Positions 29,158-37,146 of a DNA stretch of 64,000 nt are shown here, piece after piece. Both the position numbers and the translations under genes were made by a program. Source of the DNA: Candidatus Kapaibacterium sp. (GTDB lineage: Bacteria > Bacteroidota > Ignavibacteria > Kapaibacteriales > HRBIN21); assembly GCA_938084565.1 (NCBI GenBank), contig CALKEU010000008.1, positions 1 to 64,000 of the forward strand, in the 5' to 3' direction. Each line of letters begins with the position of its first letter. The stretch's first letter is position 1. Under the pieces are notes generated by a model that was not told the origin of the DNA, did not search any database, and saw only the letters and a program-made list of their open reading frames with translations.

Positions 29158-30306
29158 TCAGCCGCGGCAAGCATATGCCTGATGGAGCGCCTCTAGGAAG
29201 CCTTCTGCTGCCCGCTCAATGCCGAAGTGGCGACAAGCATGTTCGCTGATCGCCTCGCGGCGCTGACGGAGTTCCAGATGCCGTTCTGAGACCTGCTGAA
29301 TGAGTGCAGCCAGAGCCTCTGCATCACCGGGATCGAACAGTGCCCCATTCCAGCCTGGCTGGAGCAGATCGTAGGCCGCCCCGACAGCCGTAGAGCAGAG
29401 CACATAGAGCCCTGCTGCAAGAGCTTCGTTGACCACCAATCCCCATACCTCCCGCAGCGAGGGCAACACCAATACATCGGCCAAAGCATACCACCAGGGG
29501 AGCTCCTCCGGCTGCCGATGGCCTTCGAATACAACTACATCCTGCAGCCCATACTCCCGACTCAGTCGGGCCAGGGTTTCTCTCTCAGGACCCTCGCCGA
29601 CCACAAGGAGGCCAATGCCTGGATCCTGCAAGAGCCGGAGTGCCTCGAGCAGAAGGACCACATTCTTCCGAGGAATCAGACTCCCGACATACAAGAGCAA
29701 CAATGGCGGGTACTGAGCGCGCCGGCTTGCAAACTCGGCCGTCTGCCGAATTTGCCACACACTGCGTCGGAAGAACTCCATGTCCACTGTATTCGGTATG
29801 ACTACCGTGGGCAACTCCCCGCCGTGGATGCGCTGGAGCCACCGTGCGGCAGGATTGCCATATGCTAAACCCAGCCTAACCTGCCGGACGAAGGCGCGCT
29901 TGAGCGCAAAGAGCATTCCGCGCCGTATCTGCGCACTCCCCTCCCAGGATTCATACCACAGAACTGTCGGAATACCTCGCCGGCGAGCATAGTGGAGTCC
30001 TTGCCAATAGAGCAGCTGCTCATACCCACCGAGTACGAGGACATCGGGGCGCAGAGCGCGGAGGGCTCGCCCTAAACCCCAGTTGAGGTGTATGTGCCAC
30101 TCCCGTTGCATCCATGAGAAATGCACCCCAGGAAGCACGCGGTAGCGGAAGCGCAGCTGTCGGGCCTCAGGTGTACCCCATAGGCGCAATGGCTCTGACC
30201 GTGCCGCGCACAGCACGGTGAGCTCCCCTTGGAGCTGTTCGGCAACAGCATTGAAGAGGGACACTCGATAGGGGCTCAAAATATTGGTCAGCACCACAGC
30301 GCGCAT
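29158..30306 (-). CDS. Glycosyltransferase, family 4 type
   Basis: 382 aa from the ATG at 30304-30306. GT-B fold: N-terminal VVLTNILSPYRVSLFNAVAEQL acceptor-binding region; C-terminal LLLLYVGSLIPRKNVVLLLEAL, GEGPERETL, and PSLREVWGLVVNEALAAG (E-x7-E donor-binding motif). It probably transfers a sugar to a lipid-linked or surface glycan; donor and acceptor unknown. It has its own TAATTTTG box 21 nt upstream and lies 72 nt upstream of the tro regulator on the same strand. Confidence 0.88.
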   Translation of the reverse strand: MRAVVLTNILSPYRVSLFNAVAEQLQGELTVLCAARSEPLRLWGTPEARQLRFRYRVLPGVHFSWMQREWHIHLNWGLGRALRALRPDVLVLGGYEQLLYWQGLHYARRRGIPTVLWYESWEGSAQIRRGMLFALKRAFVRQVRLGLAYGNPAARWLQRIHGGELPTVVIPNTVDMEFFRRSVWQIRQTAEFASRRAQYPPLLLLYVGSLIPRKNVVLLLEALRLLQDPGIGLLVVGEGPERETLARLSREYGLQDVVVFEGHRQPEELPWWYALADVLVLPSLREVWGLVVNEALAAGLYVLCSTAVGAAYDLLQPGWNGALFDPGDAEALAALIQQVSERHLELRQRREAISEHACRHFGIERAAEGFLEALHQAYACRG

Positions 30307-30327
30307 GCCCACCACACCGGAAGGGCA

Positions 30328-30335
30328 CAAAATTA
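30328..30335 (-). promoter_or_regulatory. Putative -7 box (TAATTTTG) for the GT4 gene
   Basis: Minus-strand TAATTTTG, 21 nt before the ATG at 30306. It supports the downstream start over one at 30330. Confidence 0.55.
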
Positions 30336-30392
30336 GGGCCCTCGAAACCTACACCCGCACTACGCATCACGAAAAACGACCGCTGAAGCGAC

Positions 30393-30400
30393 TATTTTTG
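30393..30400 (+). promoter_or_regulatory. Putative -7 box (TATTTTTG) for the BNR protein gene
   Basis: Exact TATTTTTG followed by C, 27 nt before the ATG at 30428. It supports that start over an earlier in-frame codon at 30284. Confidence 0.65.
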
Positions 30401-30427
30401 CAGCGTACAAGTAACCCCTCTGCCTCC

Positions 30428-31777
30428 ATGTGGCGTCCACTCTCCCTAGCAGCTATCGCAGCTACCATCTGCGTGCTCGGGCAAGAACGACAGTGGGTGC
30501 GCCTCCTCGAGGAGCCAGTCTTCACAGTTGTTCCAAACCCCCAAAATCCCCGAACGCTCTATGCGGGAGGGCTCGGGCACCGACTCTATCGCTCCTTCGA
30601 TGGCGGAGAGACGTGGGATACCATTGTCATCGACTTCCCAGGGGGCGCAGCGCAGTTTCTGGATGTCTTCGTTCACCCCCGAGACACCTCTGTCCTCCTG
30701 GTTGGCGGTTCGGGCTTTGGGAAGCTGGTGCGGAGCTCGGATGGTGGAGGGACATGGCAGGACGTCCTCGTACCCGAACATGCGTTTCTCCTACCCAGTG
30801 GAGCCTCGATCATTGCGCATCCACTCCATCCGGACACGCTCCTTGTAACCGAGTACATCGGTCCGGGCTGGAACCCGCCGCGACTTTATCGCAGCACTGA
30901 CGGAGGGCGGACGTGGGATACCTTGGTCCCTTTTACCGAAGCCATCCCGAACTGCGCTATGGCTATCCGCTGGGACAGCCTCTGGGTGGTTGTTGCCCGC
31001 TGCGATGGAGCCATCTTTGCTTCCGCCGATTGGCAGACATGGCGTCTCATGAGCCACTTGCACCTGCCAGGCTATCCGCAAGAGTCGGAAATTCCTGACC
31101 TACTCTTCGTTCCAGACCAGCCCCAGCTCGGCTTCCTTGCCGTTACCTTTCTCTTCGACACCACCATCGCTGGGCGTCCCAACGGCGGGCTGTACCGGAC
31201 AACGGATGGCGGTATAACGTGGCATCTGTTGGCTTTCTCCGACACCAGCCTTTGGGCAGTGGCTATCCATCGTTGGGGAACAGCCCTCGAGATAGCCGTG
31301 GGAGGCTTCACCCTCTATCCCGACACCGTAGGTCGTCCCCTTGTGCCAGGGTCCGGTATTGTCCGAACTTCTCCCGATGGAGGCTCCACCTGGCTCAATC
31401 ACGATGCGGTGCTTCCCTGGGGACCTGCCGATCCCCTCCTGCGCCGAGTCTGGCGCATGCGCTATGCGCCCTCGGGCACTCTGTATGTTGCTACCGAGGC
31501 CGGTCTCTACGCATGGCGTTCCCCTCTCAGCGTACCGGTATCTGCCACCGTAGAAGAGGCAACCGTATCTCTCCTCCTCCCCCGCCGGCAGTGGCATCTG
31601 CAGGCACCGTGTTCGGGGATGCTCTCCCTCTTCTCTCTTACCGGCCACCTTCTACTCCAGCAATGGATTGCCGCAGGGGATCACTGCATAGAAGTCCAGC
31701 ATCTGGCTGCAGGCACTTATGTTGCCGAGCTCCGCAGCCCGATCCTCTGCCGGCGCTGGCTACTCCTTGTACCATAA
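30428..31777 (+). CDS. Secreted BNR/sortilin-like repeat protein with T9SS-type C-terminus
   Basis: 449 aa from the ATG at 30428, which starts a signal peptide (MWRPLSLAAIAATICVLG). Asp-box repeats recur: SFDGGETWDT, SSDGGGTWQD, STDGGRTWDT, TTDGGITWHL and SPDGGSTWLN, implying a beta-propeller of the BNR/Vps10-like type. The C-terminus (MLSLFSLTGHLLLQQW ... LAAGTYVAEL) resembles a T9SS sorting domain. Binding partner or enzymatic activity cannot be inferred. It is convergent with the pseudouridine-synthase homologue, 4 nt apart. Confidence 0.78.
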   Translation: MWRPLSLAAIAATICVLGQERQWVRLLEEPVFTVVPNPQNPRTLYAGGLGHRLYRSFDGGETWDTIVIDFPGGAAQFLDVFVHPRDTSVLLVGGSGFGKLVRSSDGGGTWQDVLVPEHAFLLPSGASIIAHPLHPDTLLVTEYIGPGWNPPRLYRSTDGGRTWDTLVPFTEAIPNCAMAIRWDSLWVVVARCDGAIFASADWQTWRLMSHLHLPGYPQESEIPDLLFVPDQPQLGFLAVTFLFDTTIAGRPNGGLYRTTDGGITWHLLAFSDTSLWAVAIHRWGTALEIAVGGFTLYPDTVGRPLVPGSGIVRTSPDGGSTWLNHDAVLPWGPADPLLRRVWRMRYAPSGTLYVATEAGLYAWRSPLSVPVSATVEEATVSLLLPRRQWHLQAPCSGMLSLFSLTGHLLLQQWIAAGDHCIEVQHLAAGTYVAELRSPILCRRWLLLVP

Positions 31778-31781
31778 GGGC

Positions 31782-32837
31782 TCAGCGGGGGAACCACCGC
31801 TGCGAAAACTGCTGCCAGGCTGGCATGGTCTGCGCCGTCACCTCCGGCAGCCGCGGTGTCTCCTCTTCGAGCTTTGCGAGTTCCTCTGCACGGAGACGCC
31901 GCCAAGCCCCGACGGGCAGTTCATCACTGGTGAGGAAGCCCAAGCGATAGCGGTGCAAGTGCAGAATCTCTAGCCCTTCTTTCTTCAGAAGGCGGTGGAG
32001 GAAGCCCAGTGGAAGCTGGCGTGCAACGATACGGAGCCAGCACGTGTGCGCGTTCTCCTGGAGTAGCTCCACGCGAGCCTCAAGGTTATGCTGCGACATA
32101 CGGCGCAGCTCCTGCGTCAGGCGCTCCAACTCCTGGTGCGTGACATGGCGGTGCACTTTGATGTGGTACTCCTTCTCCACAAGGCTCAGGGTCGAGCGCT
32201 CAGGATTCCGATAGGCGGGATCAGTGCTGAAAATGACTATCCCGCTGGCGAACTTCGTCAACCGTCCGCAGGGGAAATAGCCCCCTTTGCGCTTGGGGAG
32301 ATACTCGTAGACGGTGGGAGTCCCGAGCTCCTTGGAGGCTGCGACACGGCGCGGCTTATGGAAGACCAGCGTATAATGCTCCGCCGGCGGGAAGAGCAGC
32401 TCGATGCCATCGGCGAGGATAGTATCTCGGTGGACGAGAACCCGGACATTGGGTTCCACAACCGTTACTCCATTGACTTGGACACGCCCCTGGCGGATGA
32501 GAGCCAGAGCGGCAGCGTGAGAGGCGTACTTGAGCCGATTCAAAGCTCGAGCTAATGACATCAGATGTGGCTCGGGCGGGGCCTTCTTTGGGCGCCTTCG
32601 CTGAGGGGTGGTCAAACGCCGCCGGCGGTACATCCGTTTCCGACGCGCTTGGAAATCCCCGCGCCGCTTCCACACCGGCGGACCAGCCCTACGGGCAGCC
32701 GGTGTTCCACGCTCTCCAGAAGCCGGTTCTGCTTCACGACGGAACTTCTTCCGATGGCGGAAGTACCGTTGCGGACGCTGTCCCCCACCGGTATTTCCGC
32801 CATTTCCCCCTGCGGCATTCCACGGTGGTTGTGTCAT
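31782..32837 (-). CDS. RsuA/RluB-family pseudouridine synthase homologue lacking the catalytic Asp
   Basis: 351 aa from the ATG at 32837, chosen over 32867 because GGGGAG lies a few bases upstream. Residues 1-~90 are a Gly- and then Arg/Lys-rich extension. An S4 RNA-binding domain follows (~94-140, LNRLKYASHAAALALIRQGRVQVNG as seen across 99-123), then the synthase-like domain (YTLVFHKPRRVAASKE, PTVYEYLP). The universal catalytic motif GRLD reads GRLT here (YFPCGRLTKFASGIVIFS): Thr194 (codon ACG) replaces the Asp essential in all known pseudouridine synthases. It may bind rRNA without modifying it. It is the last gene of the operon that starts at 38622. Confidence 0.85.
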   Translation of the reverse strand: MTQPPWNAAGGNGGNTGGGQRPQRYFRHRKKFRREAEPASGERGTPAARRAGPPVWKRRGDFQARRKRMYRRRRLTTPQRRRPKKAPPEPHLMSLARALNRLKYASHAAALALIRQGRVQVNGVTVVEPNVRVLVHRDTILADGIELLFPPAEHYTLVFHKPRRVAASKELGTPTVYEYLPKRKGGYFPCGRLTKFASGIVIFSTDPAYRNPERSTLSLVEKEYHIKVHRHVTHQELERLTQELRRMSQHNLEARVELLQENAHTCWLRIVARQLPLGFLHRLLKKEGLEILHLHRYRLGFLTSDELPVGAWRRLRAEELAKLEEETPRLPEVTAQTMPAWQQFSQRWFPR

Positions 32838-32891: not shown

Positions 32892-33497
32892 TCAGCCGAT
32901 GGAGCGCACGACTACAAAGCCGAGCAGTAGGAGGATGACAAAGCCCAACGCCAGCCAATCGAAGTAGCGCTCCATAAGGCGCTGGATTCCTGGTCCAAAA
33001 GCCCACAGAAGTGTTGCAACGGCGAAGAAGCGCAGAGCACGCCCTACCAGCGACACCCCCATGAAGGGAAGGAGCGGCAAGGCAACGGCCCCTGCAGCAA
33101 GGGTTGCCACCTTATAGGGGATGGGCGAAAAAGCCGCTGCAAAGAGGAACCACACCCCAGCCTCACCCCGGTAGAGCTCCACAACATGCTGCCACGCTGC
33201 CTGGGCTTGGTAGAGGTGCACGATCCGATACCCCACTATGTCCATGAAGCCGTGCCCAATTGCATAGCCGAGCAGCCCCCCGAGCACAGAGCCAAGAGTA
33301 CACACAGCAGCAGCCACAAAGGCTCTCTGGCGATGCAGGAGCACCAGCGGTATGAGCATCACATCGGGCGGAAGGGGAAAGACCGACGCCTCGGCTGCAG
33401 CAACACCAAAGAGTATCCAGAGAGCTTCTCGCCGTGCCGCTGCCGCCTCCAGCCGGGCCTTCTCGCGCCACAACCACTGACGGACCGCTCCAATCAT
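32892..33497 (-). CDS. VTT/DedA-like membrane protein (YqaA type)
   Basis: 201 aa, about five hydrophobic segments. Features of the SNARE-associated/VTT family: [33 protein letters not shown], and [25 protein letters not shown] (the F-P-x-P-x-K loop). DedA/VTT proteins are linked to lipid flipping and envelope homeostasis; the function of this member is unknown. It overlaps accA by 4 nt and belongs to the same operon. Confidence 0.85.
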
Positions 33498-34441
33498 TCA
33501 GCCCACACCCCCATGCGGTAGAACTTCTGCCGACGGCGCTGCACGAGCTCCTCCACAGGTACCCGGGCCAGTTCCTCTAACTCCTCTCGCAGCACCGCAC
33601 GCATGATCTCATACATCTGCGCCGGATCCCGATGCGCCCCACCGACTGGCTCGGGAACAAGTCGATCGACAACTCCGAGCCGCACCAGATCCTCAGCGCA
33701 CAGCTCTAACTCTTCAGCCGCTTGCTCCTTGAAATCCCAACTCCGCCAGAGAATGCTTGAACACGACTCAGGTGCAATGACCGAATACCAGGCATACTGC
33801 AGCATGAGCACTCGATCACCCACCCCGATCCCGAGCGCTCCACCCGATCCCCCCTCGCCAATGACTACCACGAGAATGGGCGTACGCAGACGGGCCATCT
33901 CAAACAGATTCCGGGCAATGGCCTCGGCTTGCCCTCGTTCCTCCGCCTCAATGCCCGGAAAGGCACCCGGAGTATCCAGAAAGGAAACAACCGGTTTACG
34001 GAACTTCTCCGCAAGCCGAAAGAGCCGTAAGGCCTTACGGTAGCCTTCGGGATTGGGCATGCCGAAATTGCGGCGCAGATTCTCCTGTGTCGTACGGCCC
34101 TTCTGATGCCCGACCACAACGAGTGTCTTTCCCTCAAAGCGTGCCAGCCCGCCAATGAGGGCAGGGTCATCCCCCCCGCATCGGTCGCCGTGCAGCTCGA
34201 CGAAATCCGTGAACACATTCTGGACGTAGTCCAGCGTCGAGGGACGCTCGGGATGGCGTGCAATCTGGACGCGCTGCCACCGCGTCAGATTCGCATACAC
34301 GTGCCGCCGCAACTGCTCGAGCTGTTGCTCAAGCTTGGCCACCTCCGAAGCAATTTCGAGCTGGTCCGACAGGGCCCGCAGTTCGGCCACCTTCTGCTCC
34401 AGTTCGATGAGGGGTTTCTCAAAGTCGAGGACGTATCTCAC
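33494..34441 (-). CDS. accA: Acetyl-CoA carboxylase carboxyltransferase subunit alpha
   Basis: 315 aa, typical length. It pairs with AccD to move the carboxyl group from biotin on AccB to acetyl-CoA, making malonyl-CoA. The N-terminus [18 protein letters not shown] is characteristic. Core motifs: [81 protein letters not shown] and [20 protein letters not shown]. The start overlaps the glycosyltransferase gene by 23 nt. accD and accBC are not in the window. Confidence 0.97.
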
Positions 34442-36437
34442 GGCGGAGCCTCCGGATGCAGTATGTCAGCACAATGTCCACATCAAGCCCAAGCGAGTAG
34501 TGGCGCATGTAGTAATGGTTGAGCTGCCGCACGACGGCCGGCGACAGCTCCTCCGCACCCCCCAAACGGGCCAACGTAAGCAATCCGGGTTTGGCCACTG
34601 CATGTAAGTGCTCCCCACTCTGGGGCTCAATCCCGACCACACTCCAATGACCTCGAAGCACGAGCCACCACCGCCGCAGCAAGCTCCAGCGGTGGGCACT
34701 CAAAAATACAAGTGGCAGCCCCAAACTGAGGGCAACGACGGCGCAGATAAGATCGAGAGTGCGCTTGAGCAGTCGTAGCCGCGGATGCAGCAGAGGGTAT
34801 TCAACCCATGCCGGCTCATGTCCCAAGAGCTCTCGCACGAAGCGTTGTACCCAGAGCTCGTCGGAGTTCTGTGCCAGGGATAGCCGCACACGCCAGCGGG
34901 CCAATCGTTCCGCCACGGCCACCAACTCTCCGGGAGGCAGCTCCGGCGTTGCAACAACGAGCTCGTGAATGCGCCATTGCGCTACCAGTTCAGGCAGCTC
35001 TCCATAGCTCCCGAGCACCGGTATCCCGTCATCGTGCGCATACGGCTCATCGTCGTAGCGGACAACACCCAGGAACAGAACGCTTGCATCCTGCTGGCGC
35101 TGCAGAGTTACCGCCAGAGCATGGGCTACAGCTCCCCTCCCAAGTACGGCAACACGGCGCGGCCGCACGCCATGCCGACGCAATTGCTGGATGGCAGCAC
35201 GGGCTCCTATCCCCCAGAGAGCACCCCCAACAGCCGTTCCCACCATGACCCAGCGGCTGAAGGCGTAATCCTTGAAGAAGGCGGCTAACGCGGCCACCGC
35301 AAGCATCGACAAGGCATATGCCATGGCTGCCCGAGCCAGCTGTACCCGCCGCTCTAGGTAATCCCCACAGAAGAGCATCATAGCCACGACAACACTCCCG
35401 ATGGCCAAAAACACGGTTGGATAGGCGTAGGCGGGCAACCCCAGGAAATGCCCGAAACGCAAACGCGTTGCCACCAACAGCGCCACCGTTACCCCGAGCA
35501 AATCCGCTATCCCGAGCAGCCAGAGGTTGGGATACTGGAGCGCTCGAGCCAGGATCTCCCGCAACTTGATGCCAATCTGCAAAAGGGGGACAAGCGGTGA
35601 CCCCTTGTAATAGCGGCGCACAAAGATGCGCATAGCCTCGTAGAAGTGAAAGAGCGCATCCGTGGTCGAACGGCGTGTGCTCTCCCCCTTGAAGTGCAAG
35701 ATGCTGACGGCTCCGACATACCCAATCCGCCAGCCAGCCAGATGCGCCCGGTAGCACAAGTCAATGTCCTCTCCGTAGAGGAAGTACTCCGGATCGAACC
35801 CCCGGAGCTCTCGCAGCACTTCGCGACGGCAGAACATGAAAGCCCCCGAAATGACCTCCGCATAGCCTATCTCCTGCTCATCCCGAAAACCCTGCGAATA
35901 CCGGGCAAAGATCCGAGAGCGGGGGAAAAGCCGCTCCAACCCAAATAGCCGTGTGAAGGCCACCCATGGGGTCGGAAAGCCCCGGCGGCACGTCTCCTGA
36001 AAGGAACCATCCCGATTCAACACCCGGCAGCCTGCAATGCCGACCTCGGGGTGCCGCTCCATATAGGCCAGCATTGTGCGAAAGGTGTCCGGATGGACAA
36101 GTGTGTCAGGGTTCAGCAGCAGAATGTAACGCCCGCAAGCTTGCGCAATTCCGATATTGTTTGCCCGCCCAAAACCAACATTAGTCGGCAAGGGTATCCA
36201 GCGAACCTGTGGAAAAGCCGGCATGAGGGTGGCTACAGTACCGTCATCCGAAGCATTGTCCACTACGAGCACTTCACCCTCGATCCCTTGCAAGGCTTGG
36301 AAGACGGAGCGCAGACACTGCGCCAACACGTCTTGCACATTGTGGCTGACAATGACAATAGAGAGCTCTAGCGTGGGCGATTCAGCCAGGAAATCCGCCT
36401 CCAAGACTTCAGCCGTCTGTGTAGTATCGGCGCTCAT
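34419..36437 (-). CDS. GT2 glycosyltransferase fused to a truncated polyprenyl-P sugar phosphotransferase
   Basis: 672 aa from the ATG at 36437. Residues ~25-280: GT2 of rhamnosyltransferase type ([59 protein letters not shown]). Then ~4 membrane helices, a Rossmann-like CoA-binding region ([15 protein letters not shown] ... [14 protein letters not shown]), and a WcaJ-like end. The end keeps the entry helix ([18 protein letters not shown]), [15 protein letters not shown] and [18 protein letters not shown]. It lacks the ~70-residue catalytic middle (QERVG...YKFRTM...DEIPQ) seen in the neighbour at 37150, and VGPRP reads VGIEP. The last half is probably catalytically dead, a membrane or regulatory platform. 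It overlaps the dpm1-like gene by 29 nt. Confidence 0.85.
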
Positions 36438-37146
36438 TCCGCACCAGACTCGACAGGCGTAGTCGCCATACCATCCAGGCTGCTTCGTAGACAATGCCTC
36501 GATTGAGCTTCGACAGCCCGCTGCGGCGGTCCACAAAGATAATGGGCACCTCCACAATCCGGCAGCCCAAACGCCAGAGCCGGTAGGTGACCTCAATTTG
36601 AAAGGCATACCCATTCGAGCGGATCCGTTCCCATCGGAGGCGGCGTAGAACCCGGCCCCAGAAAGCCTTGAAGCCACTCGTGGCATCCGCTATGGGCATG
36701 CCAGTAATGCAGCGGGTATAGCGATTGGCAAACCAGCTCAAAAGGAGCCGTCCAATCGGCCAATTGACTACGTTGACCCCACTGACGTACCGGGAGCCGA
36801 TAGCCACATCGGCTTGGTCGAGTGTTGCCACAAGCCGGGGCACATCGGCCGGATCGTGTGAGAAATCCGCATCCATCTGCACCACAATGTCGTAGCCTCG
36901 CTGGAGTGCCCACTGAAACCCCTGACAGTAGGCCGAACCAAGCCCGAGCTTAGCCGGTCGCTGCAGGAGATGCACCCGTCCGGGAAACTGCTCCTGCCAC
37001 TGACGTACCTCCTCGGCCGTGCCATCGGGCGAGGCATCATCTACGATGAGCACCTCTGCCCCGAGCTCTAACCGGAGAAGCGCCGGAATTAATTCGGCGA
37101 TGTTCTCCCGCTCATTGTACGTTGGAATGACAACGAGGACTCGCAC
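36409..37146 (-). CDS. Polyprenyl-phosphate mannosyltransferase-like GT2 (Dpm1 type)
   Basis: 245 aa. GT-A fold with VVIPTYNERENIAELIPALL at the N-terminus, VLIVDDASPDGTAEEV, VQMDADFSHDP (DxD) and IGSRYVSG, plus the IADATSGFKAF segment typical of dolichol-phosphate mannose synthases. It probably loads a sugar (mannose or glucose) onto undecaprenyl phosphate for surface glycan synthesis. No C-terminal membrane helices, so it is a short Dpm1-type. It starts 3 nt downstream of the WcaJ-like gene's stop. Confidence 0.92.
   Translation of the reverse strand: MRVLVVIPTYNERENIAELIPALLRLELGAEVLIVDDASPDGTAEEVRQWQEQFPGRVHLLQRPAKLGLGSAYCQGFQWALQRGYDIVVQMDADFSHDPADVPRLVATLDQADVAIGSRYVSGVNVVNWPIGRLLLSWFANRYTRCITGMPIADATSGFKAFWGRVLRRLRWERIRSNGYAFQIEVTYRLWRLGCRIVEVPIIFVDRRSGLSKLNRGIVYEAAWMVWRLRLSSLVRNERRYYTDG

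Follow-up and report, generated by a model that had tools for sequence, protein, structure and literature searches.

The window, the whole stretch of 64,000 nucleotides that was analysed, comes from a 1.87 Mb genome in 16 contigs whose relatives are Candidatus Kapabacteria. It carries a minus-strand gene for a relative of the RsuA, RluB and RluF pseudouridine synthases in which threonine replaces the catalytic aspartate. The features of the locus are as follows.

31782..32837, minus strand: putative pseudo-pseudouridine-synthase gene, 351 residues plus stop, defined by the open reading frame, domain matches and orthologues
32562..32837, minus strand: basic N-terminal extension, residues 1-92, presumably disordered (composition)
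32436..32555, minus strand: S4 RNA-binding domain, residues 95-134 (Pfam PF01479, 24.4 bits, cut-off 22.8)
32019..32372, minus strand: PseudoU_synth_2 domain, residues 156-273 (Pfam PF00849; AlphaFold model)
32256..32258, minus strand: Thr194 (ACG) in place of the catalytic Asp, equivalent to Asp110 of E. coli RluB (alignment)
31983..32018, minus strand: degenerate motif III, residues 274-285, ending in Lys285 (alignment)
31785..31823, minus strand: C-terminal peptide PAWQQFSQRWFPR, of the W-x-x-L/F-Y/S-x-x-W-F type, recurring across families
32892..33497, minus strand: DedA/VTT-like membrane protein gene, between accA and the pseudo-synthase gene (open reading frame, blastp synteny; family named by inspection)
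33494..34441, minus strand: accA, acetyl-CoA carboxyltransferase alpha, the conserved upstream neighbour (named by inspection)
34419..36686, minus strand: glycosyltransferase or sugar-phosphate transferase-like gene upstream of accA (open reading frame, synteny)

A gene at 30284-31777 is convergent with the pseudo-synthase gene and ends 5 bases from its stop; by eye, its product has BNR/sialidase-like repeats and a C-terminal domain resembling the type IX secretion sorting domain. In almost all of the class, the glycosyltransferase-like gene is kept directly upstream of accA, which links envelope and lipid genes.

The reading frame starts at an ATG at 32837 that is preceded by AAGGGGAGA, and a start in MTQP or MTTQP is also found in four of the five congeners. 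The order of an S4 domain followed by PseudoU_synth_2, which marks homologues of RsuA, RluB and RluF, is present in the window protein, with PF00849 scoring 26.6 bits in hmmscan (just under the cut-off of 26.8) and 28.6 bits in the genome search. The NCBIfam equivalog models place the protein below their cut-offs for RluB (37.0 against 290 bits), RluF (30.0 against 318 bits) and RsuA (33.5 against 275 bits). The closest sequence relatives in the PDB are RluB, RsuA, RluF and RluE, and the top Foldseek matches to the AlphaFold model of the core (pLDDT 89.7, pTM 0.83) are RluF 3dh3, RsuA 1ksk and RluB 4lgt. With PF01479 above its cut-off and these nearest structures, the original prediction that the S4 domain and the fold motifs persist holds. 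Global TM-scores to the three top matches are about 0.5-0.57 and those to the catalytic-domain entries 2gml, 2olw and 4lab are 0.69-0.73, so the placing of the S4 and catalytic domains relative to each other probably differs in the model.

To our knowledge, the aspartate of the GRLD motif is essential in all pseudouridine synthases that have been studied. Motif II of the window protein reads F-P-C-G-R-L-T-K, and the change from GRLD to GRLT that had been predicted is borne out at the codon. A second loss adds to the prediction, which had named only the aspartate. Motif III has the form EG(R/K)NRx(V/I)RR, or E-G-R-N-R-x-V-R-R in RluB, and includes Arg194, whereas the window protein has QLPLGFLHRLLK at residues 274-285 and reads QLPLGFLHR across the motif. 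The equivalents of the base-flipping Arg108 and the active-site Tyr140 are both kept, and the equivalent of Arg17 in the S4 domain is a histidine. In RluB, Asp110 and Arg194 are the conserved residues of motifs II and III (PMC3919597).

Orthologues occur in all five congeners, which include Bacterium HR21 and SKYG35, at 72-77% identity, and GRLT is found in six of the six genomes of the genus. Eight more families of the order have orthologues at about 27-39% identity, and f13, a family of another order in the same class, also has one. Motif III has been lost in 38 orthologues from nine families of the order. The catalytic position is occupied by T, L, R, S, N, G, A, P, V or E and rarely by Asp, which is retained in part of f9 (as GCLD) and in one f7 genome (L026, GRLD); the motif table shows that these members still lack the EGxNRxVRR form of motif III. 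With ten other residue types found at the position, selection specifically for threonine is unsupported outside the genus and f13. Family f3 and genus g2 still have accA but have lost the gene, which was not found outside the class among 247 genomes of the phylum at a strict cut-off. Genome G058 has, behind accA (L163, 1524-2261), a short relative of the pseudo-synthase gene that is either strongly diverged or decayed; the match is weak, with an E-value of about 2.5e-5.

The extent of the loss was counted on E. coli RluB numbering in 42 family rows, some of them near-identical, four f13 rows and 50 active relatives. The Asp110 column holds Asp in 50/50 active enzymes, 5/42 family rows and 0/4 f13 rows, and it passes through 19 state changes on the tree. 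Arg194 of motif III is found in 48/50 active enzymes versus 3/42 family rows. The remaining positions are less depleted: Arg108 is present in all 50 active enzymes versus 20 of the 42 family rows, Tyr140 in all 50 versus 37, and Arg17 of the S4 domain in 49 versus 27. The last count, together with the histidine in the window protein, suggests that the RNA target may have changed.

Constraint on the protein has persisted. Between congeners, dN/dS over the S4 domain and catalytic core is about 0.04-0.14, an approximate value since dS is saturated. Among 34 non-redundant family rows, Lys285 is invariant (34/34) and is shared with all four f13 rows, in contrast with 0/50 active enzymes. Lys227 is likewise invariant (34/34) and rare in active enzymes, while Arg298 and Arg264 show little or no variation in the family and are rare in active enzymes, with position 264 being histidine in the window protein. 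The active-site set lost in the family comprises positions 194 (Asp), 274 (Glu), 275 (Gly), 277 (Asn), 278 (Arg) and 281 (Arg). The window protein thereby shows the hallmarks of a pseudoenzyme, namely lost catalytic residues, a kept fold and purifying selection. Judged from the alignment, the lost active-site set together with the new constraints points to changed function, not decay, and the combination of purifying selection with family-specific invariant residues argues for a retained non-catalytic function.

On the maximum-likelihood tree, 38 family members form a clade with support of 100/99, and the split that separates all active RsuA-family enzymes from the family and f13 has support of 97/95. 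The possibility that the f13 gene is a local duplicate of RluB was rejected by the AU test (p = 1e-5). The gene order of glycosyltransferase-like gene, accA and pseudo-synthase gene is found in every locus long enough to tell, with the DedA-like gene between accA and the pseudo-synthase gene in some families only. In f13, the gene lies behind accA in four of four genomes, with the glycosyltransferase-like gene also visible in three. Sixteen genomes from other families of the class all have accA, 15 of them with the glycosyltransferase-like gene upstream, and none (0/16) has the pseudo-synthase gene within 1.5 kb behind accA. The common location, Lys285 in both groups and the tree together speak for one ancient origin. 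On balance, the gene may well be an old, lineage-specific paralogue of the RsuA/RluB/RluF synthases that has lost catalysis and kept the fold.

Four other PF00849 genes are present in the window genome: two with HRLD of the RluA/RluD type, one RluE-like gene (PVGRLD) and one RluB-like gene. The second intact rluB or rsuA gene that was to be looked for is present with a qualification: the RluB-like protein has the Asp and the Arg194 equivalent, but its motif III lacks the Glu and Asn. Across the genus, this protein reads GRLE in G001, G004 and G005 and GRLD in G000, G002 and G003, and its motif III is near-complete only in G002 and damaged in five of the six genomes, so the genus may be losing RluB function as well. 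The RluB-like gene lies at loci L105 (G001), L134 (G005), L135 (G004) and L003 (window genome), and also at L142 and L143. Three f4 genomes, G051, G024 and G031 (L119, L120 and L121), harbor an extra, apparently active S4-type synthase besides the dead one, with GRLDKASEG and an intact motif III.

Loss of the substrate was considered as a cause. Helix 93 of 23S rRNA keeps UU at 2604/2605 in two congeners, and hence the substrate has not been lost there; the assembly of the window genome itself has no detectable 23S gene. In G018, G024, G041 and G046 (f5 and f4; for example L149-L151), helix 93 reads ACAGGUCGGUC and not ACAGUUCGGUC, a difference that changes U2604, the RluF target, to G.

The best-characterised counterparts are E. 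coli RluB, which makes Psi2605 in 23S rRNA, and RluF, which makes Psi2604. The family shares with them the S4 and PseudoU_synth_2 domains, the same fold, the tyrosine, the lysine of the KP motif and several glycines. In contrast to both, it lacks the catalytic Asp and the EGxNRxVRR motif III and has the new invariant Lys227 and Lys285, a long basic N-terminus and, in some families, the C-terminal peptide. Dead relatives of pseudouridine synthases are already known from human cells in the RluA and TruB families, namely RPUSD3 and TRUB2 of the mitochondria. Unlike the family described here, RPUSD3 is a vertebrate RluA-family protein of independent origin that has no S4 domain of this type, and TRUB2 is a eukaryotic TruB-family protein. 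Both are inactive relatives: RPUSD3 has the catalytic Asp replaced by Gly and no detectable activity, and TRUB2 has a diverged catalytic domain, no detectable activity and a possible role in assembly of the mitochondrial large subunit (PMC12716993). A search of mainly open-access literature yielded no report of an inactive RsuA-type synthase or of a lineage-wide dead synthase in bacteria, and no paper that links Kapabacteria with pseudouridine.

Catalysis-independent roles of rRNA modification enzymes provide a further comparison. Inactive RlmB(E198A) boosts the growth of an E. coli strain that lacks ten modification enzymes, a stimulation independent of catalysis (PMC11194073). A study of METTL15 likewise describes its catalysis as dispensable for mitoribosome biogenesis (PMC11197891). 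Unlike the family, RlmB and METTL15 are methyltransferases that are naturally active and were inactivated only by experiment. In the same E. coli multi-knockout strain, RluB and RluF had no significant effect and did not rescue assembly (PMC11194073), which counts against an assembly role.

Catalysis has very probably been lost, and the predicted non-modifying character is strengthened by the loss of the Asp and motif III across nine families, by selection and by the invariant residues. By analogy with the proteins above, a non-modifying, rRNA-binding factor for 50S assembly has an even chance of being the right description, or slightly better. The S4 domain and the basic groove would still grip a structured rRNA element without modifying it; this element may be the stem-loop of helix 93 close to the peptidyl transferase center, where RluB and RluF act. 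The basic N-terminal tail would strengthen the binding, and the C-terminal peptide of some families would be a docking point for a partner. The protein as a whole would have a holding or timing function during assembly of the 50S subunit. Such a factor would not need to replace RluB, since the genome has a separate RluB-type gene, and its loss in f3 and g2 indicates that it is not indispensable.

The N-terminal tail bears on which RNA is bound. A basic, disordered-looking N-terminus is common to the family. In the window protein, its 92 residues contain 27 K+R, 5 D+E, 11 G and 12 P, so that the predicted extension of about 90 residues is correct in length and is Arg/Lys-rich rather than Arg/Gly-rich. 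The blocks RPQR-x-FRHR-x-KF and W-K-x-R-x-DFQA-x-RK recur within the genus, and in other families of the order the tail reaches up to about 390 residues and is often rich in Gly, Arg, Gln and Asn. Such long tails in many members, resembling the RGG type, would also suit a dead but selected protein that acts on non-ribosomal RNA as a chaperone or as an mRNA or tRNA regulator, possibly of the accA operon, and the stable linkage with accA and the partial loss of the S4 arginine that grips helix 93 in RluB agree with such a role. It is nevertheless unlikely: the fold and the nearest relatives are those of rRNA enzymes, and the accA linkage may be plain operon inheritance, because the glycosyltransferase-like gene and accA are conserved class-wide without this gene.

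The C-terminal tail raises a protein partner. The WxxLYxxWF-like peptide, preceded by a variable linker, ends the proteins of f1, f2, f4, f6 and f9 and is absent from f5, f7, f8, f10 and f13. A narrow DNA search pattern that covers the strict form of the peptide and misses the window gene itself matched nothing but the pseudo-synthase gene in five genomes, and the peptide may thus be a private docking motif. Its recurrence in five families and this restricted occurrence could indicate a protein scaffold in which the old fold and the peptide bridge partners and RNA binding is incidental. A scaffold of this kind is improbable, as four families and f13 lack the peptide and the core is still strongly basic, with a mean net charge of +13.9 in the family versus +11.4 in active enzymes.

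The retained Tyr140 equivalent and the few members with Asp or Glu at the catalytic position would be expected if the protein retained isomerase or other RNA-modifying activity by means of an alternative catalytic residue. Such activity is very doubtful, given that no single residue substitutes for the Asp across the state changes of that column, that the Arg and the Glu-Gly of motif III are gone too, and that RluB itself is nearly inactive after single substitutions, with 0.6% of activity left in R108A and 2.8% in Y140F (PMC3919597). A recent mutation, a sequencing or assembly error or a decaying pseudogene in one genome, which GRLD in the orthologues was expected to reveal, is excluded for practical purposes by GRLT in six of six separate assemblies, intact frames, the low dN/dS and orthologues without motif III throughout the order.

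The assembly-factor reading can be extended to the whole order, with catalysis lost once before the split of the two orders and new RNA and protein surfaces acquired since; this more ambitious version, which would make the protein the first RsuA-family pseudoenzyme described in bacteria, falls a little short of an even chance. For annotation, matches to TIGR00093 or PF00849 in Kapabacteria should not be called pseudouridine synthase by fold alone. Whether cells retain rRNA modification enzymes for the chemical change they make or for their binding is a long-standing question, for which engineered dead mutants are the usual test. The family provides a natural experiment, in which the fold without its catalytic residues occurs in nine families of the order and one beyond, with the core under strong selection. 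Deletion or swap of the gene would directly part a binding role from the chemistry.
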